A stretch of DNA of 64,000 bases from Cupriavidus consociatus (GTDB lineage Bacteria > Pseudomonadota > Gammaproteobacteria > Burkholderiales > Burkholderiaceae): contig NZ_JAGIQA010000016.1 in NCBI RefSeq assembly GCF_017814975.1, positions 62,001-126,000 on the forward strand. Reading direction: 5' to 3'. Position numbers and translations under genes: made by a program. Shown here piece by piece: positions 1 through 15,300 of the stretch (position 1 is its first letter; each line of letters opens with the position of its first letter). Under the pieces are notes generated by a model. The model worked only from the letters and a program-made list of their open reading frames with translations. It was not told the origin of the DNA and did not search any database.

Positions 1-1172
1 ACAAACGCCATCTTCACGGTCGGCCCGATCTTGATCTCGCCGCTGTCCGGCTGCTCCTTGCCCGTGAGCATCTTGAAGAACGTCGACTTGCCGGCGCCGT
101 TCGGACCGATGATGCCGACGATCGCGCCCGGCGGCACCTTGAAGCTCAGGTTTTCGATCAGCATGCGGTCGCCAAACCCCTTGCTGACGTTGTCGAACTC
201 GATCACTTCGTTACCCAGGCGCTCACCCACCGGGATGAAGATTTCCTGGGTCTCGTTGCGCTTCTGGTATTCTTGGCTGTTCAGCTCGTCAAAGCGCGCC
301 AGGCGCGCCTTGGACTTGGCCTGGCGGCCTTTGGGGTTCTGGCGCACCCACTCCAGTTCCTTGTGCAGCGCCTTCTGGCGCGCCGATTCGCTGGCCTCTT
401 CCTGCTTCAGGCGCGCTTCCTTCTGGTCCAGCCACGAGCTGTAGTTGCCCTTCCAGGGGATGCCCTGGCCGCGATCCAGTTCCAGGATCCACTCGGCGGC
501 GTTATCGAGGAAGTAGCGGTCGTGGGTCACGGCCACCACGGTGCCGGGGAAGCGCGTCAGGAACTGCTCCAGCCAGTCGACCGACTCGGCATCCAGGTGG
601 TTGGTCGGTTCGTCGAGCAGCAGCATGTCGGGGCGCGACAGCAGCAGGCGGCACAGCGCCACGCGGCGCTTCTCACCGCCGGACAGGTGGCCGACCTTGG
701 CATCCCACGGCGGCAGGCGCAACGCGTCGGCGGCGATGTCGAGTTGCAGCTCGACATTATTGCCGTCGCTGGCGGCCAGGATCGCTTCGTACTTGGCCTG
801 GTCGGCGGCGAGCGCGTCGAAGTCGGCGTCCGGCTCGGCGTAGGCCGCATAGATCTCGTCGAGCTTCTTGCGCGCCTCGAACACACCGCCCAGCGCCGCT
901 TCCACCGATTCGCGCACGGTCTGCTCGGGATCGAGCTGCGGTTCCTGCGGCAGGTAGCCAATATTCAGGTTCGGCATCGGCGTGGCTTCGCCCTCGATCT
1001 CCTTGTCGAGGCCGGCCATGATCTTGAGCAACGTGGACTTGCCCGAGCCGTTCAGGCCCAGCACGCCGATCTTGGCGCCGGGGAAGAACGACAGCGAGAT
1101 GTCCTTCAGGATGTGACGCTTGGGCGGAACGATCTTGCCCACGCGGTTCATGGTGAAAACGTACTGTGCCAT
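1..1172 (-). CDS. ettA: Energy-dependent translational throttle protein EttA (ABC-F ATPase), 3' part outside window
   Basis: ABC-F family ATPase that binds the ribosomal E site and gates entry into elongation according to the ATP/ADP ratio; cytosolic, no membrane domain. About 390 of the usual ~555 residues are present because the gene runs off the left edge. The first nucleotide-binding domain has Walker A GLNGSGKST at residues 39-47 and the signature LSGGEKRRVAL followed by LLLDEPTNHLD. The second domain begins near residue 335 with Walker A GPNGAGKST. The linker carries the basic, alpha-helical stretch (KARLARFDEL) typical of the tRNA-interaction motif of EttA. The start is the ATG of MAQYVFTMNRV, which matches the conserved EttA N-terminus. 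It is divergent from the zinc-ribbon gene across 137 bp. Confidence 0.93.
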   Translation of the reverse strand, partial: MAQYVFTMNRVGKIVPPKRHILKDISLSFFPGAKIGVLGLNGSGKSTLLKIMAGLDKEIEGEATPMPNLNIGYLPQEPQLDPEQTVRESVEAALGGVFEARKKLDEIYAAYAEPDADFDALAADQAKYEAILAASDGNNVELQLDIAADALRLPPWDAKVGHLSGGEKRRVALCRLLLSRPDMLLLDEPTNHLDAESVDWLEQFLTRFPGTVVAVTHDRYFLDNAAEWILELDRGQGIPWKGNYSSWLDQKEARLKQEEASESARQKALHKELEWVRQNPKGRQAKSKARLARFDELNSQEYQKRNETQEIFIPVGERLGNEVIEFDNVSKGFGDRMLIENLSFKVPPGAIVGIIGPNGAGKSTFFKMLTGKEQPDSGEIKIGPTVKMAF

Positions 1173-1264
1173 GGGTGCGTGTTGGGGTTGGTGCGGGAAT
1201 GGCGGGAGTGTATCAGGCACGCCGGGGCGCGCAGCCGGCCCCAGCCAGCTTTGGCCCCCGCCGG

Positions 1265-1270
1265 TACAAT
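1265..1270 (+). promoter_or_regulatory. Possible -10 element (TACAAT) upstream of the zinc-ribbon gene
   Basis: TACAAT matches the sigma-70 -10 consensus at 5 of 6 positions and lies about 40 bases before the ATG at 1310. No convincing -35 is visible at the right spacing, so this is only a candidate. It falls in the divergent region shared with ettA. Confidence 0.3.
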
Positions 1271-1309
1271 GGCGGGTTCGACTTTCCGCTGATTTTCCGA
1301 GGCATCGCC

Positions 1310-1534
1310 ATGAGCAGACCCGCCCTGACCCTGAAGTTCAAGTGCAAGAAGTGCGCGAAACCCGTCACCCTGTACCTGCAGAAAACATCCGCGTGCTCGC
1401 ACATCACCCCGTACCAGGGCTTCTGCAAGTGCGGCGAGATGATGCGCCACGCCACGGGCGACAAGGACGCGGTCGAGTCCTTCGTCAACTCGCTGGACAA
1501 CAGCTGGATGCATCACCATCACCACCACCATTAA
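1310..1534 (+). CDS. Small zinc-ribbon-like protein with native C-terminal His7 tail
   Basis: A 74-residue basic protein that I do not recognise as a named family. Cysteines at 12 and 15 (CKKC), 29, 39 and 41 (CKC) plus His31 suggest a small zinc-binding fold. The last seven residues before the stop (68-74) are all histidine, encoded by mixed CAT and CAC codons. The ATG at 1310 begins MSRPALTLKFKC; the longer upstream reading frame from 1166 has no family-like sequence. The next gene starts 23 bases downstream, so the two are probably co-transcribed. A metal-binding or metal-buffering role is an inference from composition only. No signal peptide or membrane segment is visible. Confidence 0.75.
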   Translation: MSRPALTLKFKCKKCAKPVTLYLQKTSACSHITPYQGFCKCGEMMRHATGDKDAVESFVNSLDNSWMHHHHHHH

Positions 1535-1557
1535 TCGCTACTAAGCAGGCCGCCGCA

Positions 1558-2142
1558 GTGACCGAAACCTGGCGCCCCTCCGCCAAGGATCCGATGCGCT
1601 TCCTGGGCGGCTACCCGCCCGAGGTGCTCGACCAGGTGCGCGAGCTCGCCGCCGCCGGCCGCCTCGGCGACCACCTGGCCCGCCGCTATCCCGGCCGCCA
1701 CTCCGTGCAGACCGATCGCGCGTTGTACGACTACGCCGCCGAACTGAAGCAGGAATACCTGCGCAGCGCGCCGCCGCTGCACAAGGTCGGTTTCGATGCC
1801 ACGCTCGACTCGGCGCACAAGGCCTTGGGCCTGCACACCGCGATCTCGCGCGTGCAGGGCGGCAAGCTGAAGGCCAAGAAGGAAATCCGGGTGGCGTCGC
1901 TGTTCAAGGAAGCGCCGGCGGAATTCCTGCGCATGATCGTCGTGCACGAACTCTCGCACCTGAAAGAGAGCGATCACGACAAGGCCTTCTACCGGCTCTG
2001 CGAACACATGGAGCCGCGCTATCACCAGCTGGAGTTCGACACGCGCCTGTGGCTGGCGTGGCGCGAGCTGGCCAAGACGGGGACGAAGGCCGTCCCCGCA
2101 TCGGAACTTACTTCTTCTTGCGCGGATCGTCGGCCGGATTGA
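1558..2142 (+). CDS. YgjP-like zinc metallopeptidase (DUF45/M48-related)
   Basis: A 194-residue soluble protein with the zinc-peptidase motif HELSH at 130-134, followed by a third histidine at 140 and a phenylalanine-rich segment (HDKAFYRLCEHM). This is the arrangement of the YgjP/DUF45 family, whose physiological substrate is not known to me. The GTG at 1558 fits the frame from MTETWRP and follows the upstream stop by 23 bases; an in-frame ATG at 1594 is an alternative. The last 35 bases overlap, tail to tail, the end of the cupin gene on the other strand. Co-location with a Cys/His-rich small protein suggests a shared link to zinc, which is inference. Confidence 0.8.
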   Translation: MTETWRPSAKDPMRFLGGYPPEVLDQVRELAAAGRLGDHLARRYPGRHSVQTDRALYDYAAELKQEYLRSAPPLHKVGFDATLDSAHKALGLHTAISRVQGGKLKAKKEIRVASLFKEAPAEFLRMIVVHELSHLKESDHDKAFYRLCEHMEPRYHQLEFDTRLWLAWRELAKTGTKAVPASELTSSCADRRPD

Positions 2143-2587
2143 CGAAGTGGAAGGCCCACGGGCCCATTACATTGAGCTGGATAACCGTTTCATCCCTGGT
2201 CCAGCCGAAGTGATGCACTTTGGGCTGCATGACGATCAGGCTGCCGGGACCCATCGGCGCAGTTTTCTCGGGATCCAGCTTGTCGCCCATACCATAGTGG
2301 AAGGTTCCTGAAAGCACGGTCACGCGCTCGATCCCTGGATGCCAGTGCGCCGGCACCTTGGAGTCGGCCGGCAGCCTGATGCGCGCCGTGATTGGCACGT
2401 TCTTGTCCATGGCGCCTTCCAGCACAGCGATCTGCGCCCCCGGGATCAGGGACAGTTCCGACCATTTGACCTGGTCGGCGGTGACCATGCTCACCTTGGC
2501 GTCCGGTGCCTTCGGGGCTGCCAGCGCTGGCGTGGCCAGGCAGGCGCACAAGGCCACCCCGCTGAGTGAGAGAAGCCTTCTTTTCAT
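2108..2587 (-). CDS. Secreted cupin-domain protein
   Basis: A 159-residue protein with a clear signal peptide (MKRRLLSLSGVALCACLATPALA, cleavage near residue 24) and a single cupin barrel. Likely metal ligands are His81 and His83 in PAHWHPG, Glu87, and the histidines of the second motif (KVHHFGW, near 125). Periplasmic cupins of this kind often bind a divalent metal, but the substrate cannot be read from sequence. A purine-rich Shine-Dalgarno (AAAAGGAGC) lies just upstream of the ATG. The C-terminus ends in basic residues and overlaps the convergent peptidase gene by 35 bases. No partner gene is in the same direction nearby, so it is probably monocistronic. Confidence 0.82.
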   Translation of the reverse strand: MKRRLLSLSGVALCACLATPALAAPKAPDAKVSMVTADQVKWSELSLIPGAQIAVLEGAMDKNVPITARIRLPADSKVPAHWHPGIERVTVLSGTFHYGMGDKLDPEKTAPMGPGSLIVMQPKVHHFGWTRDETVIQLNVMGPWAFHFVNPADDPRKKK

Positions 2588-3113
2588 GACGAGCTCCTTT
2601 TGAAGCAGGCGGCCGCAACCGCAGCCGCGTTAGGAAACCTGGCGTATTGCCGGATCGCAGGCGCTCAAGGCAGCGGAAGCCCGGCCTCGAACTCGCCCGG
2701 CATCAATGCCATGCATACAGTGCGCCAGCCCGCCAGAACTGCCTCCTGGCAGGCATTTGCGCGGTACGCGATGTGCCGACGCGGTCCTGATCAGCACAAA
2801 AGGTTGCACTGGTGAAACAACCCCTTGCGCCCTCAGCATCAGCCGGCCAATGCCTGCTCGAGCGGGCCGGTCGCTTTCGGGGGCCCTCTACTTTGTCGGG
2901 CGCCTTGCAAGGGGAGTGCCCCTGTGCAGCGGCGCCCTTCGCGTAGCTGACCCCGGTTCGGGCCAATACCGGGGCATCGCTCGCGGAGCGCGGGTCTTGG
3001 GCTTGCCAAACATCGGAATGCTGGCACCGCGGCAATCGGCCGACCTGGCGCTCTACGACGCCAGCGGGCTGCGCTTCCATCCAGTCTCACTGGCAAGCCC
3101 CCGCCTCGCCAAC
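2588..3113. other. Gene-poor interval (526 bp) between the cupin and TRAP permease genes
   Basis: No intact gene is visible on either strand. Its right-hand third holds a short amidohydrolase-like relic, annotated separately. The remainder has several short open frames without recognisable motifs; I see no RNA gene. Confidence 0.6.
2961..3095 (+). pseudogene. Relic of an amidohydrolase (deaminase-like) C-terminus
   Basis: Translation from 2961 gives a segment containing IARGARVLGLPNIGMLAP followed by SADLALYDASGLRF. This matches the end of cytosine/8-oxoguanine deaminase-type amidohydrolases, where a TxGGAxxLG helix is followed by IGxLxPGxxADLxLxD. The catalytic N-terminal two thirds are absent, and the usual glycine of PG is arginine here. 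There is no start codon with a family-like N-terminus upstream, and the fragment runs straight into the end of the TRAP permease gene. It is therefore a remnant, not a functional gene. Confidence 0.5.
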
Positions 3114-5033
3114 CTACAGGAACCCGATAGAGAACCACGGCACCAGCGTCAGCAGCAACAGCGCAATGCACAACGCCGCCATATGCGGCCACACGCGTGG
3201 CATGGCAACATCCGGCGACACGCGCCCGATCGCGCAGGCAGCATAGAAGCCCACCCCGAACGGCGGCGCGAACAAGCCCAGCCCCATGGCGAAGATCACT
3301 ACCATGGCATAGTGCACCTCATGCACACCGACCAGCCGGGCAATCGGGAACAGCAAAGGCCCGAACAGCACGATGGCCGGGATACCCTCCAGCAAGCTGC
3401 CCAGGATCACGAAAGCCAGCGCCGACACCAGCAGGAAACCAGTCTTGCCGCCGGGCACACCGGACATGACGCCGACCAGGTCCTGTGCAAACCCCGACTG
3501 CGTCAGCGCCCACGCCATGGTGGTGGCACAACCGACGATCAGCAGGATCGCGCCAGACAACGCCGCCGTATCGGTCAGGATCGGATAGATGCGCCGGCAG
3601 TCGAACTGCCGGTACATCAGCACGCCGGCCAGCAGCGCATAGAAGATGCCGATGGTCGATACCTCGGTGGCGGTAGCCACGCCCTCCACCACGGCGGTAC
3701 GGATGATGACCGGCAGCGCCAGCGCCGGCAGTGCGACCATCAGCAATCTCAGCAACACGCGGCCCGATGGCCGCACCGTGCCCCGCATGTCCTCCTTGCG
3801 CGTCTGCCACCAGACCACCAGCGCCATCATCGCCAGGCCGACCAGCGCCGGCATCAGCCCGCCGATGAACAATGAGGTGATCGACACGCCCGTGACCGAC
3901 CCGACCGTGATCAGCACGATGCTGGGCGGGATCGTCTCCGACATCGCGCCGGACGCCGACAGCAGGCCGATCAGGTCGCCATCCTTCGCGCCACGCTGCT
4001 TCATCTCCGGGAACAGCGCCGGCGCGACCGCGGCCATGTCGGCAGTCTTCGAGCCGGAAATGCCGGAGACGATATACATCGCGCCAAGCAGCACATACTG
4101 CAGTCCGCCACGCAGATGGCCAAGCAGCCCGGCCAGGAACTGGATCATGGCGCGCGCCAGGCCGGTCATTTCGATCAGCCCGCCCAGGAAGATGAACAGC
4201 GGCACCGCCAGCAGGATCAGGTGCGACATGCCCTCCTGCATGCGGTTCGGGATGATCGACAGCGGCGTGGCGGTGGACAACGCCAGGTAGCAGAGCGTGG
4301 AGAGCCCGAAGGCGAAGGCGATGGGCACGCCGATGGCGACGCAGGCAACCAGCATCAGCAAAAAGAAGATCACCAGGTTGGCATTGCCCAACCCCATCAG
4401 CACCGGCGAGAGCAGCCACAACATGCCGGCGCCGAGCCCGACCAGCAATCCGCTGATGGCCGCCTGCCTGCGGCTGGCACGCTCCAGCAGGCGGATCACG
4501 GCGGTCACGAGCATCAGCACGGTGCCGGCGAGCACCGCCCCGGCGCGCCAGGCTTCGCTGACCTCCAGGGTCGGCGTCAGCACCTCCACGTGTTCGACGA
4601 GATGTTCCCACGCCGGCTCCACCAGCAGCAACAGGAACGCCACCACCATCCACATGCCACAGGCATCCAGCCACGCGCGCCGGTGCGGCGGCAGTTTGCT
4701 GATGAAGGTGGTGAGCTGCATATGCGCGCTGCGCTGCAAGGCAATGATGGCACCGAGCATCGCCAGCCACAGGAACAGGATGCCGGCAAGCTCCTCCGTC
4801 CACGGCAACGGCGCATGCAGGGCATAGCGCGCAAATGCGCCGCCCCCGAGTATCAGGATTTCGGCCACAACGATCAGCGCGGCCGGCAGTTCAACCAGGC
4901 AGGCCAGGATGCGGCCCCAGCGCGCGCTGGCGGCGGGCGGTGTATGGGCGGTATGGGCGGTATGGGCGGTATGGGCGATGTGGGCGTTGTGGGCGGCGGG
5001 CGGGTCCACCGTCTCGGCGGCGTGCTCCATCAT
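3114..5033 (-). CDS. TRAP transporter permease, fused DctQ-DctM
   Basis: Inner-membrane permease of a tripartite ATP-independent periplasmic transporter, 639 residues. The small DctQ-type domain (about residues 40-190, four membrane helices, with ALHAPLPWTEELAG) is fused to a large DctM-type domain (about 205-635) that has the family segments ISGSKTADMAAVAPALFPEM and SETIPPSIVLI. In most systems these are two proteins. The ATG at 5033 is chosen because GAGGAG lies just ahead of it; an ATG at 5054 is possible and would add seven residues. Residues 14-31 are an Ala-His-Thr repeat. It follows the binding-protein gene by 42 bases, so the two form one transport unit, probably for a sugar acid given the neighbours. 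Confidence 0.93.
   Translation of the reverse strand: MMEHAAETVDPPAAHNAHIAHTAHTAHTAHTPPAASARWGRILACLVELPAALIVVAEILILGGGAFARYALHAPLPWTEELAGILFLWLAMLGAIIALQRSAHMQLTTFISKLPPHRRAWLDACGMWMVVAFLLLLVEPAWEHLVEHVEVLTPTLEVSEAWRAGAVLAGTVLMLVTAVIRLLERASRRQAAISGLLVGLGAGMLWLLSPVLMGLGNANLVIFFLLMLVACVAIGVPIAFAFGLSTLCYLALSTATPLSIIPNRMQEGMSHLILLAVPLFIFLGGLIEMTGLARAMIQFLAGLLGHLRGGLQYVLLGAMYIVSGISGSKTADMAAVAPALFPEMKQRGAKDGDLIGLLSASGAMSETIPPSIVLITVGSVTGVSITSLFIGGLMPALVGLAMMALVVWWQTRKEDMRGTVRPSGRVLLRLLMVALPALALPVIIRTAVVEGVATATEVSTIGIFYALLAGVLMYRQFDCRRIYPILTDTAALSGAILLIVGCATTMAWALTQSGFAQDLVGVMSGVPGGKTGFLLVSALAFVILGSLLEGIPAIVLFGPLLFPIARLVGVHEVHYAMVVIFAMGLGLFAPPFGVGFYAACAIGRVSPDVAMPRVWPHMAALCIALLLLTLVPWFSIGFL
4942..4993 (-). 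repeat. 9-bp tandem repeat encoding Ala-His-Thr/Asn/Ile units in the TRAP permease N-terminus
   Basis: About six degenerate copies of a 9-bp unit (GTATGGGCG on the plus strand; four are nearly identical) sit in frame in the cytoplasmic N-terminal tail of the permease. Changes in copy number would add or remove three residues without shifting the frame. Confidence 0.8.
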
Positions 5034-5075
5034 GAGCTCCTCTTTCTCTTGCATGTCGGCTTGATGGCGCCTGCT

Positions 5076-6095
5076 TCAGACCAGCGGTCCGGTGTATTTT
5101 TCAAGCATCTCCCATGCGTCGTCGCCAAACTTCCTGCGCCACTCGGCGTAGAAGCCCGCGTCGCGCAGCAGCTTGCGGAACGGCGCCGGATCGGGCCGGT
5201 TGAACGTGATGCCAAGCCGGGACATCTCCGCCTGCGCTTCGACATCGAGCCGCGCGATATCCTCGCGCTGCTTCAGCGCCGCGGTGGTGAAGCGTGTGCT
5301 CAGCGATGCCTGCACCTCGCGCGGCAGTGCCTGGAATCTTCTGGCATTGCCGAAGATAAAGTGGCCGTCCCAGGTATGCGCGGTCAGCGAGCAGAACTTC
5401 TGCACTTCGTACAGCTTGCCGCTGCGGATCAGCGATAGCGGCGTCTCCTGGCCGTCCACCACGCGTGTCTGCAGCGCCGAATAGAGATCGGCAAACGGTA
5501 TGACCGTCGGCGCCGCGCCCAGCATCTTGAACATGGAGACCCACAGCGGGATCGCCGGGACACGGATCTTGAAGCCCTTCAGGTCCGCTGGCGTGCTGAC
5601 CGGACGGGTAGCTGAGGTGATGCTGCGATAGCCGTTGTCGAGGCACTTTTCGAACACATGCAGGTTCACCTTGCCCAGCGCGCTGCGCACGTAAGCGCCC
5701 AATCCCCCGTCCATCGCGGCCCACACCGTGGCGTAGTCCTTGAAAGCAAAGGCCACACCGTTGAGGCTGGCGGCCGGCACACGTGTCTGCAGGTTGGTGC
5801 TGGCCGTCGACATGAAGTCGATCGCGCCGGCAAGGATCTGGGAGACCATGTCTGGCTCGCTGCCCAGCTGGCTGTTGGGATAGACCTGCAGGTCGACCTT
5901 GCCGCCGGTGTCCTGGCGAATGGCCTCGGCAGCCTCCTTGATGCGCAGCGTGCCCGGATGATCGGCCGGGAAGGCCGTGCCGTACTTCAGCTTGATGGTG
6001 GCGTTCTGGGCGAACGCATTGCGCCCGGGCAATGCCAGCGACAGTCCGCCGGCGGCGAGTGCGCCGAACTGTCGGCGAGTGAACCGATTGGCCAT
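5076..6095 (-). CDS. TRAP transporter substrate-binding protein, DctP family
   Basis: A 339-residue periplasmic solute-binding protein. The N-terminus has a twin-arginine-like signal (FTRRQFGALAAGG, then LALPGRNAFAQ) with cleavage near residue 29. The mature part has typical DctP segments: KYGTAFPADHPG, YPNSQLGSEPDMV, and the ligand-gripping region around VRVPAIPLW with its conserved arginine. A good Shine-Dalgarno (CAGGAGG) precedes the ATG. It lies 21 bases from the stop of the oxidoreductase gene upstream and 42 bases from the permease, so all three are likely one transcript. The ligand is probably a hexonate or hexuronate, inferred from the adjacent catabolic enzymes. Confidence 0.93.
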   Translation of the reverse strand: MANRFTRRQFGALAAGGLSLALPGRNAFAQNATIKLKYGTAFPADHPGTLRIKEAAEAIRQDTGGKVDLQVYPNSQLGSEPDMVSQILAGAIDFMSTASTNLQTRVPAASLNGVAFAFKDYATVWAAMDGGLGAYVRSALGKVNLHVFEKCLDNGYRSITSATRPVSTPADLKGFKIRVPAIPLWVSMFKMLGAAPTVIPFADLYSALQTRVVDGQETPLSLIRSGKLYEVQKFCSLTAHTWDGHFIFGNARRFQALPREVQASLSTRFTTAALKQREDIARLDVEAQAEMSRLGITFNRPDPAPFRKLLRDAGFYAEWRRKFGDDAWEMLEKYTGPLV

Positions 6096-6116
6096 GATGT
6101 GGTTGCCTCCTGTTTT

Positions 6117-7580
6117 TCAAGTTGTGGCCGGGAAGGACAGCAGCGCTGCCACGCCGTGCTCGCGCAACACCGTCAGGTGTGCGGCAAGCCGGCGCCGGAA
6201 CTGCTTCGGCCACGGGGCGTCGCCAAATACGGCCCCGTGCGCCAGCGCCCTGCGCACGGCGTCCGTATCGCTATCCGCGCCTCGCAGCGCCGCGCCAAGT
6301 GGCGGCGCACCGGGATCGCAGGCGACCAGCGGCTCGCCACGCTCATTGGTGTCGCAGCGCAAATAGTGAAACCACAGCGCCAGCGCACGCTCCAGGCATG
6401 GCCGCTCGATGCCCGAGCCCAGGCTTTCGCGCAAGGCGGGCAGCCAGCGCACCGGGATCTTCTGCGTGCCATCCATCGCGATCTGGGCAGTGTTGTGCAC
6501 GATCGCGGTGTTGCGCAGGCGGCCCAGCAACGCATTGCCGTAGCGGGCAACGTCGTACCCTGGCGGCGCATTGAGGGTGGCATGCAGGTCCTGCATCACC
6601 CCTCGCGCGAAGGCACCAAGGACCGGATCGGCCATCGCCCCGGCCACGGTCGCCATGCCGCACAACTGTGCCGCATAGGCAACCGCCGAATGCGTGCCGT
6701 TCAGCATCCGCAGCTTCATGGCCTGGAATGGCCGGACATCCTTCGTCATCAGCGCGCCGCCGGCTTCCCATGCGGGCCGCGGCCCGGCAAAGCGGTCTTC
6801 GAGCACCCATTGCGTGAAGGGCTCACAGACGATGGCAGCGTCATCGCGAAGTCCGAGTCGCTGCTGCGCCCAGTTCAACGACGCCGGCGTCGCGGCCGGA
6901 ACAATGCGGTCGACCATGGTGTTCGGCAGCGCCACCTCATCGTGGATACGCCGGGCCAGCGCCGGATCGACCTGCGATGCGTACTGGGTCAGCAGCTTGC
7001 GCAGCGTGTCGCCGTTGTCCGCCATGTTGTCACAGCAGACAATGCTCAGCGGCGCGCCGGCCGGCCGGCGGCGTATCCCCGCCGCCAGCACGCCGAGGGT
7101 GCTGCGCGGCGCGTCGGGGTGAGCCAGGTCGTGCCGGATATCCGGATCGTTGGTATCGAGGTCGGAGGTTGACGGCTGCCGGCTGTAGCCCTTTTCAGTG
7201 ACGGTGCAGGTCACGACCGAAGCGGCGGGATCGGCGATCGCACCGGTCACCCGCTCCAGCGCATGCGGCGCATACATGGCCTGCACCAAGGCGCCCACGA
7301 TGCGTCCCGTGGACTCGTCACCCTGCCGCTCGAAGTGCGCGTACAGGCAATCCTGCGCAGTCAGCACGCGCGCCATGCGCGGTTCCCGCAAGCTGACGCC
7401 CACGATGCCCCAACGCGCGTCGCCATCGTGGATCGCTGCCTCGGTGTACAGCGCCTGGTGCGCGCGGTGGAAGGCACCAAGCCCGACATGCACCACGCCG
7501 CGCGACAAGCGGCTGCGGTCGTAGCCGGGACCTTGCACGGCGGCATCGGCGCTGCAAAGAGTACGCTGCGCCAGCCTCAT
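6117..7580 (-). CDS. uxuB: Mannitol dehydrogenase-family oxidoreductase, probable D-mannonate oxidoreductase/fructuronate reductase
   Basis: A 487-residue NAD-dependent polyol dehydrogenase-family enzyme. It has the N-terminal nucleotide-binding motif VGLGAFHRAHQA near residue 30, a CCDNMADNG motif, and the catalytic segment MKLRMLNGTHSAVAY. These are shared by mannitol dehydrogenase, tagaturonate reductase and fructuronate reductase. The start is the ATG of MRLAQRTLCS; the frame stays open upstream to 7913 but that extension has no family sequence. Beside a mannonate dehydratase, the most likely reaction is interconversion of D-fructuronate and D-mannonate. It heads the minus-strand operon with the TRAP binding protein and permease. 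The symbol is by analogy; mannitol or another polyol cannot be excluded. Confidence 0.85.
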   Translation of the reverse strand: MRLAQRTLCSADAAVQGPGYDRSRLSRGVVHVGLGAFHRAHQALYTEAAIHDGDARWGIVGVSLREPRMARVLTAQDCLYAHFERQGDESTGRIVGALVQAMYAPHALERVTGAIADPAASVVTCTVTEKGYSRQPSTSDLDTNDPDIRHDLAHPDAPRSTLGVLAAGIRRRPAGAPLSIVCCDNMADNGDTLRKLLTQYASQVDPALARRIHDEVALPNTMVDRIVPAATPASLNWAQQRLGLRDDAAIVCEPFTQWVLEDRFAGPRPAWEAGGALMTKDVRPFQAMKLRMLNGTHSAVAYAAQLCGMATVAGAMADPVLGAFARGVMQDLHATLNAPPGYDVARYGNALLGRLRNTAIVHNTAQIAMDGTQKIPVRWLPALRESLGSGIERPCLERALALWFHYLRCDTNERGEPLVACDPGAPPLGAALRGADSDTDAVRRALAHGAVFGDAPWPKQFRRRLAAHLTVLREHGVAALLSFPATT

Positions 7581-7851
7581 GCCCTGACCCTCGATCGTTT
7601 GTATTGCGGCATCGTGCGGGACACCCGTGCTGTGGACGATGGCAAAACGTACCATTGGCGAATGCTGCAGACGTGCAGCCGTTTCGCAAGATTTGTGCGG
7701 CACATGCGCTTTCCCGCCGCAGAATCCGCTCATATCCGCCCCTGCCCTTCGCGAGGTAACCTGCTCCGCATTCCTTCCCATAGCGCCAGACCCATGCGCG
7801 CCCCGCATGCGATGACGCAGCAGTGGAAACGCGCAACCGCCGGAGCACGTC
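7581..7851. promoter_or_regulatory. Divergent promoter region between uxuB-TRAP and manD-rspB transcripts
   Basis: This 271-bp region separates the two arms of the sugar-acid module and must hold both promoters. The imperfect symmetry GCTGCA-GACG-TGCAGC at 7664-7679 (6-bp arms) is the best operator-like palindrome I see. No regulator gene is encoded in the module, so the regulator would act from elsewhere. The assignment is positional. Confidence 0.45.
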
Positions 7852-9060
7852 TTGAAGATCGAACGGATACAAACCATCGTCACCTGTCCCGGCCGCAACT
7901 TTGTCACGGTCAAGGTGACGACGGACCAGGGCGTCTACGGACTTGGCGATGCCACGCTCAACGGTCGCGAGCTTGCGGTCAGCGCCTATCTCGACGCGCA
8001 TGTCATTCCCTGCCTGATCGGCCGCGACCCGCGCTGCATCGAGGACATCTGGCAGTACCTGTATCGGGGTGCCTACTGGCGGCGCGGGCCCGTCACGATG
8101 ACCGCGATTGCCGCGATCGACATGGCGCTGTGGGATATCCTCGGCAAGCTGGCGAACATGCCGGTGTACCAGCTGCTCGGCGGCAAGAGCCGGCAACGGC
8201 TGCTGGTCTACGGGCACGCCAACGGCCGCGATCACGAAGAAGCCATCGATGCCGTCCACCGGCATGTCGCCGAGGGCTACAAGGCGATCCGTGTGCAATC
8301 CGGTGTGCCGGGACTCTCAAAGGTGTATGGCGTAGGCAAGCAACCCGGCCATTACGAACCCGCGGAGAAGGGCCTTCCGCCGGAAGAGCCGTGGGACACC
8401 ACACTCTACCTGCGCCACACGCCCGAACTGTTCCGCAAGGTGCGCAATGCCATCGGCTTCGGGCCGCAGCTGCTGCATGATGCGCACCACCGACTGACAC
8501 CGATCGAAGCGGCCCGACTTGGGCACGCACTCGAACCATTCAGCCTGTTCTGGCTGGAAGACGCCACTCCGGCCGAGAACCAGGACGCCTTCCGCCTGAT
8601 CCGCCAGCACACCACCACGCCGCTGGCGGTAGGAGAAGTCTTCAATTCGATCTGGGATTGCAAGGACCTCATCGGCAACCAGCTGATCGACTTCATCCGC
8701 ACCACCATCGTCCATGCCGGCGGCATCACGCATGTGCGGCGCATTGCGGAGTTCGCCGCGATGCACCAGGTGCGCACGGGCTTCCACGGCGCCACCGACC
8801 TGTCCCCGGTGTGCATGGCGGCGGCGGTCAATTTCGGATTGTGGGCGCCGAATTTCGGCATCCAGGAACTGATGCCGCATAACGCGCTGACCGACGAAGT
8901 GTTCCCGCACAACTATCGCCTTGAAGACGGCTATCTGGTCATGGATGAAGTAGCCGGCCTTGGCGTCGACATCGACGAAGCGCTGGCTGCGAGGTACCCG
9001 TACGAGCGCGCCTACCTGCCCGTGGCAAGGCTGCGCGATGGAGCGATGTGGAACTGGTAG
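7852..9060 (+). CDS. manD: D-mannonate dehydratase, enolase superfamily (ManD/RspA type)
   Basis: A 402-residue enzyme of the mannonate dehydratase subgroup of the enolase superfamily, which dehydrates D-mannonate to 2-keto-3-deoxy-D-gluconate. The N-terminal capping domain starts with the family sequence [13 protein letters not shown]. Visible active-site features are the RVQSG...KVYGVG loop, the three metal ligands in [16 protein letters not shown] and AVGEVFN, and the histidine of [10 protein letters not shown]. The start codon is TTG at 7852, preceded by CGGAG. The stop overlaps an alternative GTG start of the next gene, and the intact next gene follows closely, so the pair is an operon. 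Catalytic efficiency differs widely in this subgroup, so the physiological substrate is inferred from context. Confidence 0.92.
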
Positions 9061-9125
9061 TCCGGCACGCCATCGACGACGTTCGCATCCACACAATGCC
9101 GTCCCTCAAGCCACAAGCACCCAAC

Positions 9126-10160
9126 ATGTTGAGCATTGTCATCAACCAACCCCACAGCCTGGCCCTTTGCACAAGGCCCATCCCCACCCCCGCTCCCGGC
9201 GAAGTCCGCCTGCGCGTGCGCTATGCCGGCATCTGTGGCTCCGACCTGCACATCCTCCACGGCATGAATCCGTTCGCCGGCTACCCCCGCGTTCTCGGCC
9301 ATGAATTCGTCGGCAGTATCGACGCCGTCGGCGCAGGCATCAGCACGCAGCGCATCGGCGAACGCGTGGTGGTGGATCCGGTCATCAGTTGCGGCCAATG
9401 CCACGCCTGCCGCATTGGCCGGCGCAATGTCTGCAGCCACATGCAGGTAATCGGCGTGCACCGCGATGGCGGCTTCAGCGAATACACCTGCGTGCCGGCT
9501 TGCAATGCTTACGCGGTGCCGGCTGGCCTGACGGCGCCGAGCGCGGCAGTGATCGAGCCCTTCGCCGTCGCAGCAAACATTACGCACCGCACCGGCGTGC
9601 TGCGCGAAGACATCGCATTGATTTATGGTGCCGGCCCGATCGGGCTGAACCTGCTGCAAGTACTCAAGCGCGTCTACGGTGTACGAGTTCTTATCACCGA
9701 CCACCTCGACGAACGCCTGGCGCTGGCCCGTCATTGCGGCGCCGATGCGGAAGAGGTCATCAACACCTCACAGGAAGCCATCGAGCAGGCCCTTGCAAAA
9801 CGCGGCGCGCCGGAGGGACCGACACTCATCTACGACGCGGTTTGCCACCCGTCGATCCTGGAAGAGGCGGTGCGCATTGCCGCACCGGCAGGCCGCATCG
9901 GCATACTGGGCTTTTCCGCGACGCCATCGGCCGTCCCGCAGCTGGAGCTGACCCGGAAGGAGCTCACGCTCTATGCCTCGCGCCTGAACTGCGACATGTT
10001 TCCCACCGTGATCGACTGGATCTCTCAGGGGCTGGTCGATCCCGGCCGCATTGTCACGCACCGGATCGATTTCCGTGAGGTCGCCAGCGCCCTGGACCTT
10101 GCCGAACGCAATCCGCGCGCGGGCTGCAAGATACTGCTCGATTTTGGCGAGCCTGCCTGA
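9126..10160 (+). CDS. rspB: Zinc-dependent alcohol dehydrogenase, RspB type (candidate L-gulonate 5-dehydrogenase)
   Basis: A 344-residue medium-chain dehydrogenase. The catalytic zinc site is in AGICGSD and GHEFVG, and the four structural zinc cysteines are in CGQCHACRIGRRNVC. The Rossmann motif is GAGPIG, near residue 170. The closest family I recognise is RspB, which pairs with RspA-type dehydratases. The ATG at 9126 (MLSIVINQP) matches the RspB N-terminus; an in-frame GTG at 9048, overlapping the manD stop, and an ATG at 9096 would extend it. RspB homologues beside mannonate dehydratases have been assigned as L-gulonate 5-dehydrogenases giving D-fructuronate, and the neighbours here fit that role. 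Confidence 0.85.
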   Translation: MLSIVINQPHSLALCTRPIPTPAPGEVRLRVRYAGICGSDLHILHGMNPFAGYPRVLGHEFVGSIDAVGAGISTQRIGERVVVDPVISCGQCHACRIGRRNVCSHMQVIGVHRDGGFSEYTCVPACNAYAVPAGLTAPSAAVIEPFAVAANITHRTGVLREDIALIYGAGPIGLNLLQVLKRVYGVRVLITDHLDERLALARHCGADAEEVINTSQEAIEQALAKRGAPEGPTLIYDAVCHPSILEEAVRIAAPAGRIGILGFSATPSAVPQLELTRKELTLYASRLNCDMFPTVIDWISQGLVDPGRIVTHRIDFREVASALDLAERNPRAGCKILLDFGEPA

Positions 10161-10281
10161 TATCAAGGGATATGGCGCGGTCGACCCATTGCCAACGCGC
10201 GAGGCGGTGCGGGATGCTTTGGGCACATGGGAAGCGGGATGACGCAGCGCGGGCTCGATCCGGATGCACTGGCCCAAATGA

Positions 10282-10310
10282 AAATGGCCTCCCGAATCGG
10301 GAGGCCATTT
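10282..10310 (-). terminator. Rho-independent terminator after tRNA-Thr
   Basis: A 13-bp perfect stem (AAATGGCCTCCCG and its complement) with a 3-base loop, followed on the minus strand by a short T run. It lies just past the 3' end of the tRNA gene and could also stop plus-strand transcription from rspB. Confidence 0.8.
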
Positions 10311-10317
10311 GTATTCC

Positions 10318-10393
10318 TGGTGCCGGCTGCAGGACTCGAACCCGCCACCTGATGATTACAAATCAACTGCTCTACCTGATGAGCTAAGCCGGC
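10318..10393 (-). tRNA. tRNA-Thr (anticodon UGU)
   Basis: A 76-base cloverleaf with encoded CCA. The acceptor stem is GCCGGCT/AGCCGGC, the D arm GCTC...GAGC, the anticodon loop TTTGTAA (anticodon TGT, reading ACA/ACG codons) and the T arm GCGGG-TTCGAGT-CCTGC. The anticodon stem GTTGA/TCATC has one T-T mismatch at pair 28-42. A strong terminator follows. No integrase gene or attachment duplication is seen nearby. Confidence 0.95.
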
Positions 10394-10445
10394 ATGTCTG
10401 GTGCAGACCGCGATTCTACTGCATCGCGGCCCACTTTGGGATGGC

Positions 10446-10934
10446 TTACTTCACCACCTTCAACGCTGGCTTCTTGCCGCCGATGCGCGGTACCGGGGGC
10501 GGCGTTTCATCGTCGCCCGGGCCGGAGTCGGCAGTGGTGGCCGGCGTTTCGGCTTCCACCGGTGCCAGCTTGGGCGGCGGGTTGTTTTCGCGTTCGGTGG
10601 CAGCTTGCGTCTCCGGCAGGCTGCGCTCGACCGGGAAGGCCATGCCCTGCCCGTTTTCGCGGGCGTAGATGGCCAGCACGTTCTCGACGGGGACGTCGAT
10701 CTTGCGCGAGACACCGCCGAAGCGTGCGCTGAAGGTGATCCACTCGTTGCCCATATCCAGGCCGCTGGTGGCATCGAAGCTCACGTTGAGCACGATCTCG
10801 TTGTTCTTCACGAACTCGCGCGGCACGTTGGTGTTGGCATCGACGAACACGGCGACGTACGGCGTGAAGCCGTTATCCGTGCACCACTCATAGATGGCGC
10901 GGATCAGGTAAGGCTTGGTGGAGGTTTCAGGCAT
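10446..10934 (-). CDS. sspB: ClpXP protease specificity-enhancing factor SspB
   Basis: An adaptor that delivers ssrA-tagged and other substrates to the ClpXP protease. 162 residues: an N-terminal substrate-binding domain of about 110 residues (TSTKPYLIRAIYEWC, NVSFDATSGL, ITFSARFGG, AIYARENGQGM), then a proline-rich acidic linker. The last residues (PALKVVK) match the conserved C-terminal ClpX-docking peptide of SspB. It follows sspA by 57 bases on the same strand, the usual sspA-sspB operon arrangement. The end of the gene is about 50 bases from the tRNA gene. Confidence 0.96.
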   Translation of the reverse strand: MPETSTKPYLIRAIYEWCTDNGFTPYVAVFVDANTNVPREFVKNNEIVLNVSFDATSGLDMGNEWITFSARFGGVSRKIDVPVENVLAIYARENGQGMAFPVERSLPETQAATERENNPPPKLAPVEAETPATTADSGPGDDETPPPVPRIGGKKPALKVVK

Positions 10935-10991
10935 TGTGCTTCCAGTGGCGCCGTGTAGCCCGAGGGCGGGATGCCTTCGGGCCGGTGCCGA

Positions 10992-11603
10992 TTAGCGGCG
11001 CATCACCTTCTCGGAGGGGGTGAGCGCTTCGATGTACGCGGGACGGCTGAAAATGCGTTCAGCATACTTCAGCAGCGGCGCAGCGTTTTTCGACAGTTCG
11101 ATGCCGTAGTGGTCCAGGCGCCACAGCAGCGGCGCGATGGCGACGTCGAGCATCGAGAACTCTTCGCCCAGCATGTACTTGTTCTTGACGAAGATCGGCG
11201 CGAGCTGCGTCAAACGGTCGCGGATCGCGGCACGGGCGCGTTCGTGGTTCTTCTCCGCGGCCTTGCCCTTTTCGTTCTCGAGCGTGTACACGTGCGTGAA
11301 CAGTTCCTTTTCGAAGTTGAAGAGGAACAGTCGGGCGCGGGCGCGCTGGACCGGGTCGGCCGGCATCAGCTGCGGGTGCGGGAAGCGCTCGTCGATGTAT
11401 TCGTTGATGATGTTCGACTCATACAGGATGAGATCGCGCTCGACCAGGATGGGCACCTGGCCGTAGGGGTTCATCACCGAAATATCTTCGGGCTTGTTGA
11501 ACAGGTCGACGTCGCGGATTTCAAAATCCATGCCCTTTTCGAACAGGACAAGGCGGCAACGTTGGGAAAACGGGCAAGTCGTACCCGAATACAACACCAT
11601 CAT
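10992..11603 (-). CDS. sspA: Stringent starvation protein A (GST-fold, RNA polymerase-associated)
   Basis: A 203-residue glutathione S-transferase-fold protein that in other proteobacteria binds RNA polymerase and alters promoter use in stress or stationary phase. The N-terminal thioredoxin-like domain has TTCPFSQRCRLVLFEKG and NPYGQVPILVERDLILYESNIINEYID; the C-terminal helical domain follows. The first ATG of MMVLYSG (11603) is used. It is the first gene of the sspA-sspB operon and lies downstream of the terminator of petABC. A perfect inverted repeat about 80-105 bases upstream of its ATG is described separately. Confidence 0.96.
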   Translation of the reverse strand: MMVLYSGTTCPFSQRCRLVLFEKGMDFEIRDVDLFNKPEDISVMNPYGQVPILVERDLILYESNIINEYIDERFPHPQLMPADPVQRARARLFLFNFEKELFTHVYTLENEKGKAAEKNHERARAAIRDRLTQLAPIFVKNKYMLGEEFSMLDVAIAPLLWRLDHYGIELSKNAAPLLKYAERIFSRPAYIEALTPSEKVMRR

Positions 11604-11684
11604 GGTTGGATTCCTTGGGCTTAGCCGGAGCTGGGTCGGACGGTAAGGTCTGCCATTCTGCCAAAAGCGGACACCTAAAAGCAA

Positions 11685-11708
11685 ATAAGTGGCATTTGAT
11701 CCACTTAT
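11685..11708. promoter_or_regulatory. Perfect 8+8 bp inverted repeat upstream of sspA
   Basis: ATAAGTGG and CCACTTAT flank an 8-base spacer in the 5' region of sspA. On the minus strand it sits just upstream of a possible promoter (TTGCTT, 18 bases, CAGAAT). The position suits an operator, or a stem in an upstream leader. No known regulator is assigned. Confidence 0.4.
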
Positions 11709-11740
11709 CAGGGCATATTTCGTCACCCGGCCCAATGAAA

Positions 11741-11784
11741 AAGGCCAGAGCGATGCTGCTTTCGCAACCTCCGCGTCTGGCCTT
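11741..11784 (-). terminator. Terminator of the petABC operon
   Basis: AAGGCCAGA pairs with TCTGGCCTT around a structured loop, followed on the minus strand by five T. It begins 34 bases after the petC stop. Confidence 0.75.
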
Positions 11785-11817
11785 CGGGGTGGCTGCCCGC
11801 CTCCGGGCTGCCACCAG

Positions 11818-12561
11818 CTACTTCACATCCTTCCAGTAGGCCGCGTTCAGGCGCCATGCGAAAACAGTGAAAATGCCCAGGAACAGCAGCACCCACACGC
11901 CCAGGCGCTTGCGGTGGTTCTGCGCGGGCTCGGCCATCCAGTCCAGGAAGCCGACCAGGTCGGCTGTGGCCTGGTCATATTCGACCTTGCTCATCTTGCC
12001 CTGGCTCAGTTGCTCGAAGCCGGCGAACTTGTGGACCTTCTCGCCATGCTCTTCCACTTCCGTGAACTTGGCGGCGCGCTGGCCCTGCAGCTCCCACAGC
12101 ACGTGCGGCATGCCGACGCTCGGGAACACCAGGTTGTTCCAGCCGGTGGCGCGGCTGTCGTCACGGTAGAAGGTGCGCAGGTAGGTATAGAGCCAGTCGT
12201 CGCCGCGGGCACGCGCAATCACCGACAGATCCGGCGGCTGTGCGCCGAAGAAGGCCTTGGCTTCCTTCGGCTGCATGGCGATGGTCATGGTTTCGCCGAC
12301 CTTGTCCGCGGTGAACAGCAGGTTCTGGCGGATCTGGTCGTCAGTGAGGCCAATGTCCTTGAGCCGGTTGTAGCGCATCATCGATGCGCCATGGCAGTTC
12401 AGGCAGTAGTTGACGAACAGCTTGGCGCCGCGCTGCAGCGACGACAGGTCGGCAGTGTTCACCGGTGCCGGCTCCAGCGGGAAGCCTCCCTCTGAAGCCA
12501 TGGCAGGCGCGCCGGCAAAACAGGCGCCGGCCAGCGCGATGATCGAAAGCAGCTTTTTCAT
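11818..12561 (-). CDS. petC: Cytochrome c1 of the bc1 complex
   Basis: Membrane-anchored c-type cytochrome that passes electrons from the Rieske protein to soluble cytochrome c in the ubiquinol-cytochrome c oxidoreductase complex. 247 residues with a signal peptide (MKKLLSIIALAGACFAGAPAMA), the heme-binding CLNCH at 53-57, a PPDLSVIARARG segment, and a single C-terminal membrane anchor (LGVWVLLFLGIFTVFAW) ending AAYWKDVK. The ATG at 12561 gives the signal peptide directly; the longer open frame upstream overlaps petB and is not coding. Third gene of petABC, 35 bases after petB. Confidence 0.96.
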   Translation of the reverse strand: MKKLLSIIALAGACFAGAPAMASEGGFPLEPAPVNTADLSSLQRGAKLFVNYCLNCHGASMMRYNRLKDIGLTDDQIRQNLLFTADKVGETMTIAMQPKEAKAFFGAQPPDLSVIARARGDDWLYTYLRTFYRDDSRATGWNNLVFPSVGMPHVLWELQGQRAAKFTEVEEHGEKVHKFAGFEQLSQGKMSKVEYDQATADLVGFLDWMAEPAQNHRKRLGVWVLLFLGIFTVFAWRLNAAYWKDVK

Positions 12562-12596
12562 CTTGTGTCCTTGTGCTCTTGTCGGGGTCGCGTCGC

Positions 12597-14000
12597 TCAG
12601 TGCGGATGGAACGTGACACGCTCGGGCACCGGCTTGAACTCGCCGGCACGGCTCCACAGCGGCATGGTCAGGAAGAAGGCGAAGTACAGCAGCGTACCAA
12701 GCTGCGACACCTTCTCGCCGACCGGCGACGGCGGTTGCACGCCGAGGTAGCCGAGCACCAGGAACACCACCACAAAGACGATCAGGATGGTCTTGTGGAA
12801 AGCGGGACGATAGCGGATGGACTTGACCGGCGAGCAGTCCAGCCACGGCAGGAAGAACAGGATCACGACCGACCCGCCCATCACCAGCACGCCCCAGAAC
12901 TTGGCGTCGATGAAGTAGAAGCCCACAGCCAGGAGCACGGCGATGGCAATCGCACCGACCTTGACGCGTGCGTCCTTGCTGCGCAGGAACACCATGCCGA
13001 GCAGCAGCGCGAAGAACACCCACAGGATCGGCAGGAAGTTCGACGTGGTGGCACGCAGCATCGAGTAGAACGGCGTGAAGTACCAGACCGGCGCGATATG
13101 CGGCGGCGTCTTCAGCGGGTCAGCCGGGAAGAAGTTGTTGTGCTCCAGGAAATAGCCGCCCACTTCCGGGAAGAAGAAGATCACCGCCGAGAAGATGACC
13201 AGGAAGCCGGCAACGCCTAGCGTGTCGTGCACCGAGTAGTACGGGTGGAAGGGAATGCCATCCAGCGGCACGCCGTTCTCGTCCTTCTTGGCCTTGATCT
13301 CGACGCCATCCGGGTTGTTCGAGCCCACTTCATGCAGCGCGATGATGTGTGCAATGACCAGTGCCAGCAGCACCAGCGGCACCGCGATGACGTGGAACGA
13401 GAAGAAGCGGTTCAGCGTGGCATCGCTCACGACGTAGTCGCCGCGGATAAACAGCGACAGGTCCTGGCCGATCACCGGAATCGCCGAGAACAGGTTCACG
13501 ATCACCTGCGCGCCCCAGTACGACATCTGGCCCCACGGCAGCAGGTAGCCCATGAAGGCTTCCGCCATCAGGCACAGGAAAATCAGGCAGCCGAAGATCC
13601 AGACCAGTTCACGCGGCTTGCGGTACGAACCGTACAGCAGCCCGCGGAACATATGCAGGTAGACCACGACAAAGAAGGCCGAGGCGCCGGTCGAATGCAT
13701 GTAGCGCACCAGCCAGCCCCACGGGACTTCGCGCATGATGTATTCCACGCTGGCAAAGGCCACGGGAATGCCGGCGGCATTGAGCGTGCCATCCGGCTTG
13801 TAGTTCATCACCAGGAAAATGCCCGTGACGATCTGGATCACCAGCACCAGCAGCGCGAGCGAACCGAAGAAGTACCAGAAGTTGAAGTTCTTCGGCGCGT
13901 AGTAGCGGGACAGGTGGTCTTCCCACAGTTGCGTTGCCGGGAAGCGGGCGTCGATCCAGCCCATCAGGCCGGTCGTCTTGACTTGTTTTTCGGCCGCCAT
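12597..14000 (-). CDS. petB: Cytochrome b of the bc1 complex
   Basis: Integral membrane subunit carrying the two b hemes and both quinone sites, 467 residues, longer than the minimal ~400-residue form. It has eight or more hydrophobic helices, the heme-ligand regions (MHSTGASAFF, YLHMFRGL, VIAVPLVLLALVIAHIIALH) and the Qo-site PEW-type region as HPYYSVHDTLG...FFPADPLKTPPHIAPVWYF. The start is the ATG of MAAEKQVKTT, two bases after the petA stop, so translation is coupled. The middle gene of petABC. Confidence 0.96.
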   Translation of the reverse strand: MAAEKQVKTTGLMGWIDARFPATQLWEDHLSRYYAPKNFNFWYFFGSLALLVLVIQIVTGIFLVMNYKPDGTLNAAGIPVAFASVEYIMREVPWGWLVRYMHSTGASAFFVVVYLHMFRGLLYGSYRKPRELVWIFGCLIFLCLMAEAFMGYLLPWGQMSYWGAQVIVNLFSAIPVIGQDLSLFIRGDYVVSDATLNRFFSFHVIAVPLVLLALVIAHIIALHEVGSNNPDGVEIKAKKDENGVPLDGIPFHPYYSVHDTLGVAGFLVIFSAVIFFFPEVGGYFLEHNNFFPADPLKTPPHIAPVWYFTPFYSMLRATTSNFLPILWVFFALLLGMVFLRSKDARVKVGAIAIAVLLAVGFYFIDAKFWGVLVMGGSVVILFFLPWLDCSPVKSIRYRPAFHKTILIVFVVVFLVLGYLGVQPPSPVGEKVSQLGTLLYFAFFLTMPLWSRAGEFKPVPERVTFHPH

Positions 14001-14002
14001 GA

Positions 14003-14620
14003 TCAGGCTTCTCCTTTCTCATCCTTGCCGATCACGATCTTGGTGTCAGTCAGGAATTGGTAGGGGGGAACATCGAGATTTTGCGGAGCCGGCTTGTTCT
14101 TGAAGACGCGCCCGGCCAGGTCGAACGTGGAGCCGTGGCAAGGGCAAAGGAAACCGGGATCGGCGCCGAGTTGGGGATTGGCACCGGAAGCGAAGGGGCC
14201 GGAAGGCGAGCAGCCAAGGTGGGAACAGATTCCGACCACGACCAGGACGTCCTTGTGTTCTGCGCGCGAGCGGGTTTCGTTCTTGCAGTAGTCCGGCGTC
14301 TGCATGGTGAACGGGATCTCGGAATTCGGATCGGCCACTTCGCCGTCCGTCTTCTTCAGCGATGCCAGCTGTTCCTCCGTCCGCTTCATGATCCAGACCG
14401 GCTTGCCACGCCATTCGACAGTCATCATCTCGCCCGGCTTCAGCGCACCGATATCTGCTTCGACTGGCGCACCTGCGGCCTTGGCTTTCTCCGATGGTGC
14501 AAAGGTACTGACGAAAGGAACCGCTACCGCTACGCCTCCGACGCCGCCGGCGACGGATGTCGCGATCAACCAATTGCGGCGACCTTTATCCACGCTCTTC
14601 ACGTCTTGCTGGTCACTCAT
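14003..14620 (-). CDS. petA: Ubiquinol-cytochrome c reductase iron-sulfur (Rieske) subunit
   Basis: The [2Fe-2S] subunit of the bc1 complex, 205 residues. An N-terminal membrane anchor with a twin-arginine-like start (DKGRRNWLIATSVAGG) fits its known Tat-dependent insertion, and tatABC lies only about 5 kb away. Cluster ligands are in ICSHLGC (Cys132, His134; disulfide Cys137) and LCPCHGS (Cys159, His162; disulfide Cys161). The start is the ATG of MSDQQDVKSV. First gene of petABC; its promoter must lie in the 214 bp shared with divergent mscL. Confidence 0.96.
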   Translation of the reverse strand: MSDQQDVKSVDKGRRNWLIATSVAGGVGGVAVAVPFVSTFAPSEKAKAAGAPVEADIGALKPGEMMTVEWRGKPVWIMKRTEEQLASLKKTDGEVADPNSEIPFTMQTPDYCKNETRSRAEHKDVLVVVGICSHLGCSPSGPFASGANPQLGADPGFLCPCHGSTFDLAGRVFKNKPAPQNLDVPPYQFLTDTKIVIGKDEKGEA

Positions 14621-14834
14621 TCCAAACCCCAGGGGAAGTCAATTTAGATTTTGCGTCAACCATAAAGTGTACCTTAGACATCTGCGCACTAGATAGGCGC
14701 AAATTGCCTTGTCTATGCTCGATAATCGGACATGCATGCCGGAAATCGGCCACCAGACTTGCTTTCCGGGCAGTGATGCGGCAGGCTGATAGCTTGATAC
14801 CGTTCATCGCTAGCAACAAGAAGGAGAACCCCCC

Positions 14835-15260: not shown

Positions 15261-15275
15261 ATCCAGAACGATAAA

Positions 15276-15300
15276 ACGGCCCCGATGGGGCCGTATTGTT
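15276..15300. terminator. Bidirectional terminator between mscL and the Nif3-like gene
   Basis: An 8-bp stem (ACGGCCCC/GGGGCCGT) with a GAT loop, A-rich on the left and T-rich on the right, so it can stop transcription of both convergent genes. Confidence 0.8.

Follow-up and report, generated by a model that had tools for sequence, protein, structure and literature searches.

A five-gene cluster at positions 3114 to 10160 of a 64,000-nucleotide stretch of Cupriavidus consociatus (hereafter the window) likely encodes a C5-inverting sugar-acid catabolic kit that takes L-gulonate by way of D-fructuronate and D-mannonate to 2-keto-3-deoxygluconate (KDG). L-Gulonate and D-mannonate differ only in configuration at C5, the carbon that bears the keto group in D-fructuronate. 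In the proposed route, a tripartite ATP-independent periplasmic (TRAP) transporter would import a hexonate, most likely L-gulonate and possibly D-mannonate too; RspB with NAD would oxidize L-gulonate at C5 to D-fructuronate; a UxuB-like enzyme with NADH would reduce the same C5 from the opposite face, giving D-mannonate; and a dehydratase of the ManD family would convert this to KDG, which a kinase and aldolase pair encoded elsewhere would turn into pyruvate and glyceraldehyde 3-phosphate. With C5 as the target of both RspB and the reductase, the pair would invert this center, and the route would be redox-neutral if both use NAD(H). The analysis establishes directly which genes are present, that ManD has the residues taken to be catalytic, that the set is conserved as a unit and that the 8.3-Mb host genome holds candidate genes for the lower pathway elsewhere; we infer the substrates of RspB, the reductase and the transporter, as well as the choice of cofactor and expression. 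The chemistry of L-gulonate breakdown is already known from other bacteria, and what is new here is an Ala314-type ManD outside the ManDs of the Escherichia coli-like rsp clusters together with a TRAP transporter of another binding-protein subfamily.

All five open reading frames (ORFs) are intact, with no internal stop, and domain and family searches agreed with the initial annotation, which had placed a TRAP transporter, an oxidoreductase, ManD and RspB here. The reverse strand carries a fused TRAP permease of 646 residues, joining the small DctQ and large DctM subunits (3114..5054; PF04290 at residues 67–193 and PF06808 at residues 232–641), a 339-residue solute-binding protein of the DctP family with a twin-arginine-like TRRxF signal (5076..6095; PF03480) and a 487-residue D-fructuronate reductase-like enzyme (D-mannonate 5-oxidoreductase; 6117..7580) of the mannitol-dehydrogenase family. 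Beyond a divergent intergenic region of 271 bp (7581..7851), the forward strand carries a ManD/RspA-type D-mannonate dehydratase of 402 residues with a TTG start (7852..9060) and an RspB-type zinc dehydrogenase (9126..10160), the probable L-gulonate 5-dehydrogenase. We read the reductase gene as running from the ATG, at 6117–7580, rather than from the TTG at 7913. The rspB ORF reaches back to a GTG at 9048; as the match to the NF007489 model begins at residue 27, the start is probably the ATG at 9126.

Each enzyme is closest to the family assigned to its step, with the reductase below the curated cut-off. On the curated model NF043051 (cut-off 550), ManD scored 716.6 bits; the broader subfamily model NF011654, named "D-galactonate dehydratase family protein" (cut-off 430), gave a marginally higher score of 727 bits. 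The nearest solved structure is 2qjj. The protein carries R147, Y159, D210, H212, E236, E262 and H312, which we take to be the catalytic and metal positions, as well as A314, a residue that presumably tracks catalytic efficiency and marks the high-efficiency type when it is Ala. The motif HGATDLSPV, starting from position 312, is common to the ManD of the window and those of its Burkholderiales relatives L001–L005, and HGAT was found in 49 of the 81 ManD rows. RspB scored 556.6 bits on NF007489 (cut-off 376), a model named "Zn-dependent oxidoreductase" only, and thus belongs to the RspB subfamily; the nearest solved structure, 4ilk (E 9.1e-122), is named RspB and is, we assume, that of E. coli strain CFT073. 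The nearest structure to the reductase, by sequence and by fold, is 4im7, the fructuronate reductase YdfI of E. coli CFT073 (Z 50.7, 38% identity), whose incomplete title gives a complex with NADH and "D-mann".

The module is conserved as a unit. Within a set of 60 genomes of the genus, the window genome included, the reductase had matches in 34, of which 19 were orthologs at 71% identity or above and the other 15 were 42–45% identical and probably other polyol dehydrogenases. Binding protein, reductase, ManD and RspB occurred together in all 19 ortholog-bearing genomes, and the permease was present in 18, the contig of the remaining one (L001) ending there. The Cupriavidus records L001 and L002 agree in coordinates with the genus genomes G095 and G052, respectively. 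In one draft genome, L127, four module genes are broken into frames; apparent internal stops in nine reductase rows of the genus were followed up in two, L002 by the ORF end and L118 by translation, and both lie at the extreme gene end. Outside the genus, the trio of RspB, reductase and ManD was also found in Paraburkholderia, Azohydromonas and Variovorax, and on Variovorax sp. SRS16 plasmid 3 (L162). The transport genes beside it vary: L003 has a transporter of the major facilitator superfamily (MFS) and L005 a 46%-identical TRAP permease with no match to the binding protein, whereas L004, a plasmid of Variovorax sp. WS11, and L162 carry the same TRAP transporter. As the trio is kept while the transporter differs, it forms a functional unit. 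The grouping of the five genes is not a matter of chance. A KDG-kinase-like gene stands directly after rspB in 11 of the 19 genus modules, in one of them split, which points to KDG as the product; the best match of this module kinase was to a kinase of KDG and 2-keto-3-deoxygalactonate, at 191 below the cut-off of 400.

The enzyme trio and the order of reactions put forward in the initial annotation fit the pathway of Haemophilus influenzae, in which the conversion had been predicted, and in which kinetics, knockouts, labeling and transcripts proved the conversion of L-gulonate through D-fructuronate and D-mannonate to KDG together with a TRAP transporter, the set comprising GulPQM, GulD, UxuB, UxuA, KdgK and KdgA (PMC5788505). 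By family, the window likewise clusters a transporter with a GulD-type dehydrogenase, a UxuB-type reductase and a dehydratase, and on the proposed route the two systems share the TRAP transporter, the L-gulonate 5-dehydrogenase step, the UxuB step, the dehydration of mannonate and KDG as the product. They differ in that the dehydratase is UxuA in H. influenzae and ManD here, that the permease is described as two-component there and is fused here, that the binding protein here is 23% identical to 4pbq, and that the kinase and aldolase genes are local there and unlinked here. Locally, the module is thus less complete than first proposed: genes for KdgK and KdgA are absent from it, and their candidates, a KDG-kinase-like gene (54% to the module kinase of C. 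alkaliphilus) adjoining one for 2-keto-3-deoxy-6-phosphogluconate aldolase, lie elsewhere, at contig C120. A search of open-licence papers, most of them judged by title and opening of the abstract, brought up none recognized as a description of the module in Cupriavidus.

Other known clusters resemble the module in part. E. coli A25 has the order rspA-rspB-ydfJ-ydfI with rspR nearby, encoding ManD-family, RspB and YdfI enzymes, but its transporter YdfJ is of the MFS type. A Neorhizobium plasmid carries uxuA-uxuB-rspB, with rspB annotated as L-gulonate 5-dehydrogenase, for the same steps with another transporter. The two Variovorax plasmids, L162 and L004, have the same five genes as the window, there all in one direction and with a GntR/FCD regulator divergent beside the reductase. 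Wichelecki et al. are said to have shown in 2014 that the RspB enzymes of Chromohalobacter salexigens and E. coli CFT073, encoded beside ManD-family genes, are L-gulonate 5-dehydrogenases, and the ManDs in question were reportedly of low efficiency and without an established role. In contrast to the HGATDLSPV of the window, the six gammaproteobacterial RspB-adjacent ManDs (L029, L038–L042) read HGPSDLSP, with Pro at position 314, and that of Aquitalea (L077) reads HGASDLSP.

The ManDs of the E. coli-like clusters and of the window do not form one clade. The nearest relatives of the window ManD are those of other Cupriavidus (89–90%), Variovorax (87%), Paraburkholderia nodosa (86%) and Azohydromonas (85%), the next following at about 72%. 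A quick tree built from 85 rows placed all ten RspB-linked ManDs of Burkholderiales in one group (SH-aLRT 100). A single clade of these ten and eight rows of the gamma group was rejected by the approximately unbiased test (p-AU 0.00536), computed on a quick tree without bootstrap from the 56 of 85 rows kept after 29 long-branched or distant ones had been dropped beforehand by choice; L030, whose locus lacks RspB, was assigned to the gamma group on the strength of its position inside that group in the first tree. As the RspB-linked ManDs of the two groups are not a single clade, ManD would, on this quick tree, have joined RspB more than once or been replaced. Tentatively, and at slightly less than even chances, we propose that the Burkholderiales Ala314 ManD, of the presumed efficient type, does the dehydrating work in a pathway for L-gulonate and that the TRAP binding protein, drawn from a subfamily not tied to sugar acids, acquired a new specificity for hexonates. 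To our knowledge, no physiological role can be assigned to the low-efficiency RspB-linked ManDs; if our proposal is true, an RspB-linked ManD gains one, and a differently assembled form of L-gulonate catabolism is added for environmental Cupriavidus and Variovorax. The ligand class of the binding protein should then be new for its subfamily, which would caution against transfer of annotation across Burkholderiales.

The transporter ligand, which we propose from context, is the weakest link of this reading. The AlphaFold model of the binding protein (predicted local confidence, pLDDT, 89.5) had 4oan as its best fold match (Z 43.0, root-mean-square deviation 2.1 over 308 aligned residues, 49% identity), and the remaining matches shown, 4pbq among them, spanned Z 36.8–39.1 and 20–29% identity. 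The fold alone thus does not pick a ligand. Both the 49% to 4oan and the 23% to 4pbq fall short of the roughly 60% identity to a solute-binding protein of known ligand that the published work gives as a cluster threshold (PMC5788505), which here would define the L-gulonate-binding group of GulP and 4pbq; hexonate specificity cannot be read from the binding-protein sequence. Among 299 genomes of the family, 109 had a match at E 1e-60 or better, and the identities drop from at least 76% to at most 52%. In the 30 loci taken, the reductase adjoins the binding protein in 13 of 13 at 76% identity or above and in 0 of 17 at about 50%. Forty-four positions, four of them in gapped columns, are fixed in the reductase-linked group for residues never seen in the other, including Leu152 for Trp and S96, T97, A98, T100 and N101; the linked group is a single genus, in which relatedness alone would fix many positions. 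The twin-arginine-like TRRxF signal, a candidate for Tat export, is also present in 12 aligned close relatives of the binding protein.

Several observations weigh against an L-gulonate route as drawn. The reductase reached only 333.8 bits on its best model, the fructuronate reductase model NF011611, against a cut-off of 603, and we therefore named it UxuB/YdfI-like instead of filing it in the curated family. The L-gulonate-bound 4pbq matched the binding protein at Z 37.2 with 23% identity, and where the neighbors of the ~50% homologs could be named, by eye from ORF starts, which was so for 11 of 17, none was a sugar-acid gene; they comprised three aldehyde dehydrogenases, two short-chain dehydrogenases/reductases (SDRs), five thiolase-like proteins and one CoA-transferase. 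The KDG-kinase-like gene was not found in 8 of the 19 genus modules, the window copy included; in one of the eight, L127, only 974 bases remain from there to the contig end. The host genome also encodes an unlinked second mannonate dehydratase, a UxuA homolog (G000:C153:299965-300996, equal to L128:9966-11006). UxuA had matches in 19 of the 60 genus genomes, 16 of them strong (E 1e-148 or better, one with an internal stop) and three weaker ones that were not counted, and the strong matches were found in 13 of 19 module-bearing versus 3 of 41 other genomes (Fisher P value 2.0e-6, uncorrected for kinship). As UxuA co-occurs with the module, it may share the dehydratase step, so that ManD may be one of two dehydratases, and perhaps the minor one. 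Because module genomes without UxuA exist, four of them at least 90% complete (G070, G087, G088 and G100) and two less complete, the role of ManD beside RspB is directly testable. Finally, the absence of a uronate isomerase, which the initial annotation had taken as an argument against glucuronate, stood as an observation, since UxaC (PF02614) had no match in the host genome or in any of the 60 genus genomes, but failed as a pointer to L-gulonate. Among 50 ManD genomes, taken from 80 loci, UxaC was found in 25. None of the five Burkholderiales with RspB had it, nor did any of the 13 whose ManD locus lacks RspB; it was present in 3 of 7 gamma-group genomes with RspB and in 22 of the 25 others. 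Its absence, seen both with and without RspB, therefore characterizes these Burkholderiales rather than the module. UxuA was found in 15 of the same 50 genomes, among them one of the five RspB-bearing Burkholderiales and five of the seven gamma-group genomes. The 13 Burkholderiales genomes with neither RspB in the ManD locus nor UxaC are L006, L008–L013, L015, L016, L018, L019, L021 and L053, and 12 of them carry a UxuB-like gene in the examined stretch of the ManD locus.

It is unlikely, though worth weighing, that the transporter mainly brings in D-mannonate (or D-fructuronate), with the reductase and ManD doing the work and RspB offering a secondary way in for L-gulonate. Eight of the 13 RspB-less Burkholderiales ManD loci have TRAP-like matches and a reductase-like gene nearby, and in H. 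influenzae the screen gave L-gulonate and D-mannonate alike as hits for GulP, with either compound inducing the genes (PMC5788505). RspB is nevertheless present in all 19 genus modules and in L001–L005, even where the transporter differs. That the TRAP pair is a passenger importing a different organic acid, the sugar-acid enzymes being fed by another transporter, appears rather improbable: the nearest solved binding protein is 4oan at 49%, the ~50% homologs flank acyl-CoA, aldehyde or SDR genes in the 11 of 17 loci where a neighbor could be named, and L003 and L005 carry the trio with no match to the binding protein, but the adjacency of the reductase to the orthologs at 76% or above in 13 of 13 loci and to the ~50% homologs in 0 of 17 speaks against this reading, as do, within the limits of a one-genus group, the 44 group-specific positions.

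We consider D-glucuronate a decidedly improbable substrate, whether through a nonhomologous uronate isomerase or through a glucuronate reductase that makes L-gulonate in the cell. The lack of UxaC in the 13 genomes with no RspB in the ManD locus means that another entry may exist, and reduction of glucuronate to L-gulonate is known in fungi and animals (PMC6353982). Against this, we noticed neither a reductase nor an isomerase gene next to the module, no search having been made for other isomerases such as KduI, and a glucarate dehydratase above cut-off in the host genome points to an oxidative glucuronate route elsewhere. A role in starvation signaling, the historical meaning of RspA and RspB, is most improbable; it draws on names only, E. 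coli records labeling RspA a starvation-sensing protein, while the ManD residues taken to be catalytic are present, the trio stands beside a transporter and the KDG-kinase-like gene recurs among the modules. Overall, the module is a conserved, probable kit for the catabolism of L-gulonate and D-mannonate, of a known type but assembled in a variant way.

The divergent layout had been taken to imply shared control, and this was not supported: the genes next to the module showed no regulator, and the candidate operator of its relatives is absent. In 18 genus genomes, the divergent region measures 232–271 bp and holds short conserved blocks, as seen by eye; a promoter and terminator scan of 7400–8000 in the window returned nothing, with no sigma-70-like match in the intergenic region. 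A GntR/FCD-type regulator (63–82% alike) adjoins the module in L003, L004, L005 and L162, and YACCATGGTA palindromes, a candidate operator, lie beside it (L003:7113-7219, L004:3248-3504, L005:7095-7268 and L162:3180-3314). These intergenic regions carry TACCATGGTA or CACCATGGTA, with six sites within one mismatch in 4 of 4 regions (shuffled mean 0.025, maximum 1). In the 18 genus regions, by contrast, TACCATGGTA had 0 sites within one mismatch, 2 sites in 2 regions at two mismatches (shuffled 1.12) and 24 sites in 14 regions at three (shuffled 9.965, maximum 19). Both TACCATGGTA and the TGGTNNACCA motif described below were chosen by inspecting the very regions in which they were then counted, and the shuffles preserved nothing beyond base composition; what tests the idea is how these regions compare with those of the module, and the enrichment itself does not. 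The sole one-mismatch site of the window lies inside the permease gene (chance expectation 0.24). Among the three-mismatch sites, TACCAT at 7650–7655 may be a decayed relic of the operator, which proves nothing.

A host ortholog of the relatives' regulator was likewise sought: 27 matches were found, the best by E-value at 32% and others at up to 34% over 190 residues or 42% over short stretches. With neither the regulator nor its operator found here, the idea of a local regulator controlling both gene sets has no support. Such a regulator appears to have been lost from the genus, and one of another kind, encoded elsewhere, may act in its place. The unlinked uxuA at C153 is divergent to another GntR/FCD regulator, and between them lie 38 exact TGGTNNACCA sites (shuffled mean 0.08) that cover 16 of 16 genomes, which makes this motif a likely operator. 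Control of the module by this regulator was not supported either, as TGGTNNACCA was found in 0 of 18 module regions within one mismatch and, at two mismatches, in 11 of 18 with 16 sites, against a shuffled mean of 17.4.

A few observations concern the surroundings of the module. In G067 (L122:12619-15989), an IS21-type insertion with IstB-like and transposase-like genes interrupts the kinase-like gene that follows rspB. On L162 (NZ_LR594668.1), a 560-kb plasmid of a Variovorax from linuron soil that PLSDB types as non-mobilizable, the module and its regulator lie near traI/traF-type transfer genes; spread of the module by plasmids is plausible. An Rfam scan of positions 1–20000 of the window returned tRNA only. 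A tRNA-Thr gene (10318–10393) and sspB lie directly downstream of the module, and the distance from rspB, or kdgK, to sspB varies among the genus members with an identified sspB, which suggests that the site may be variable.

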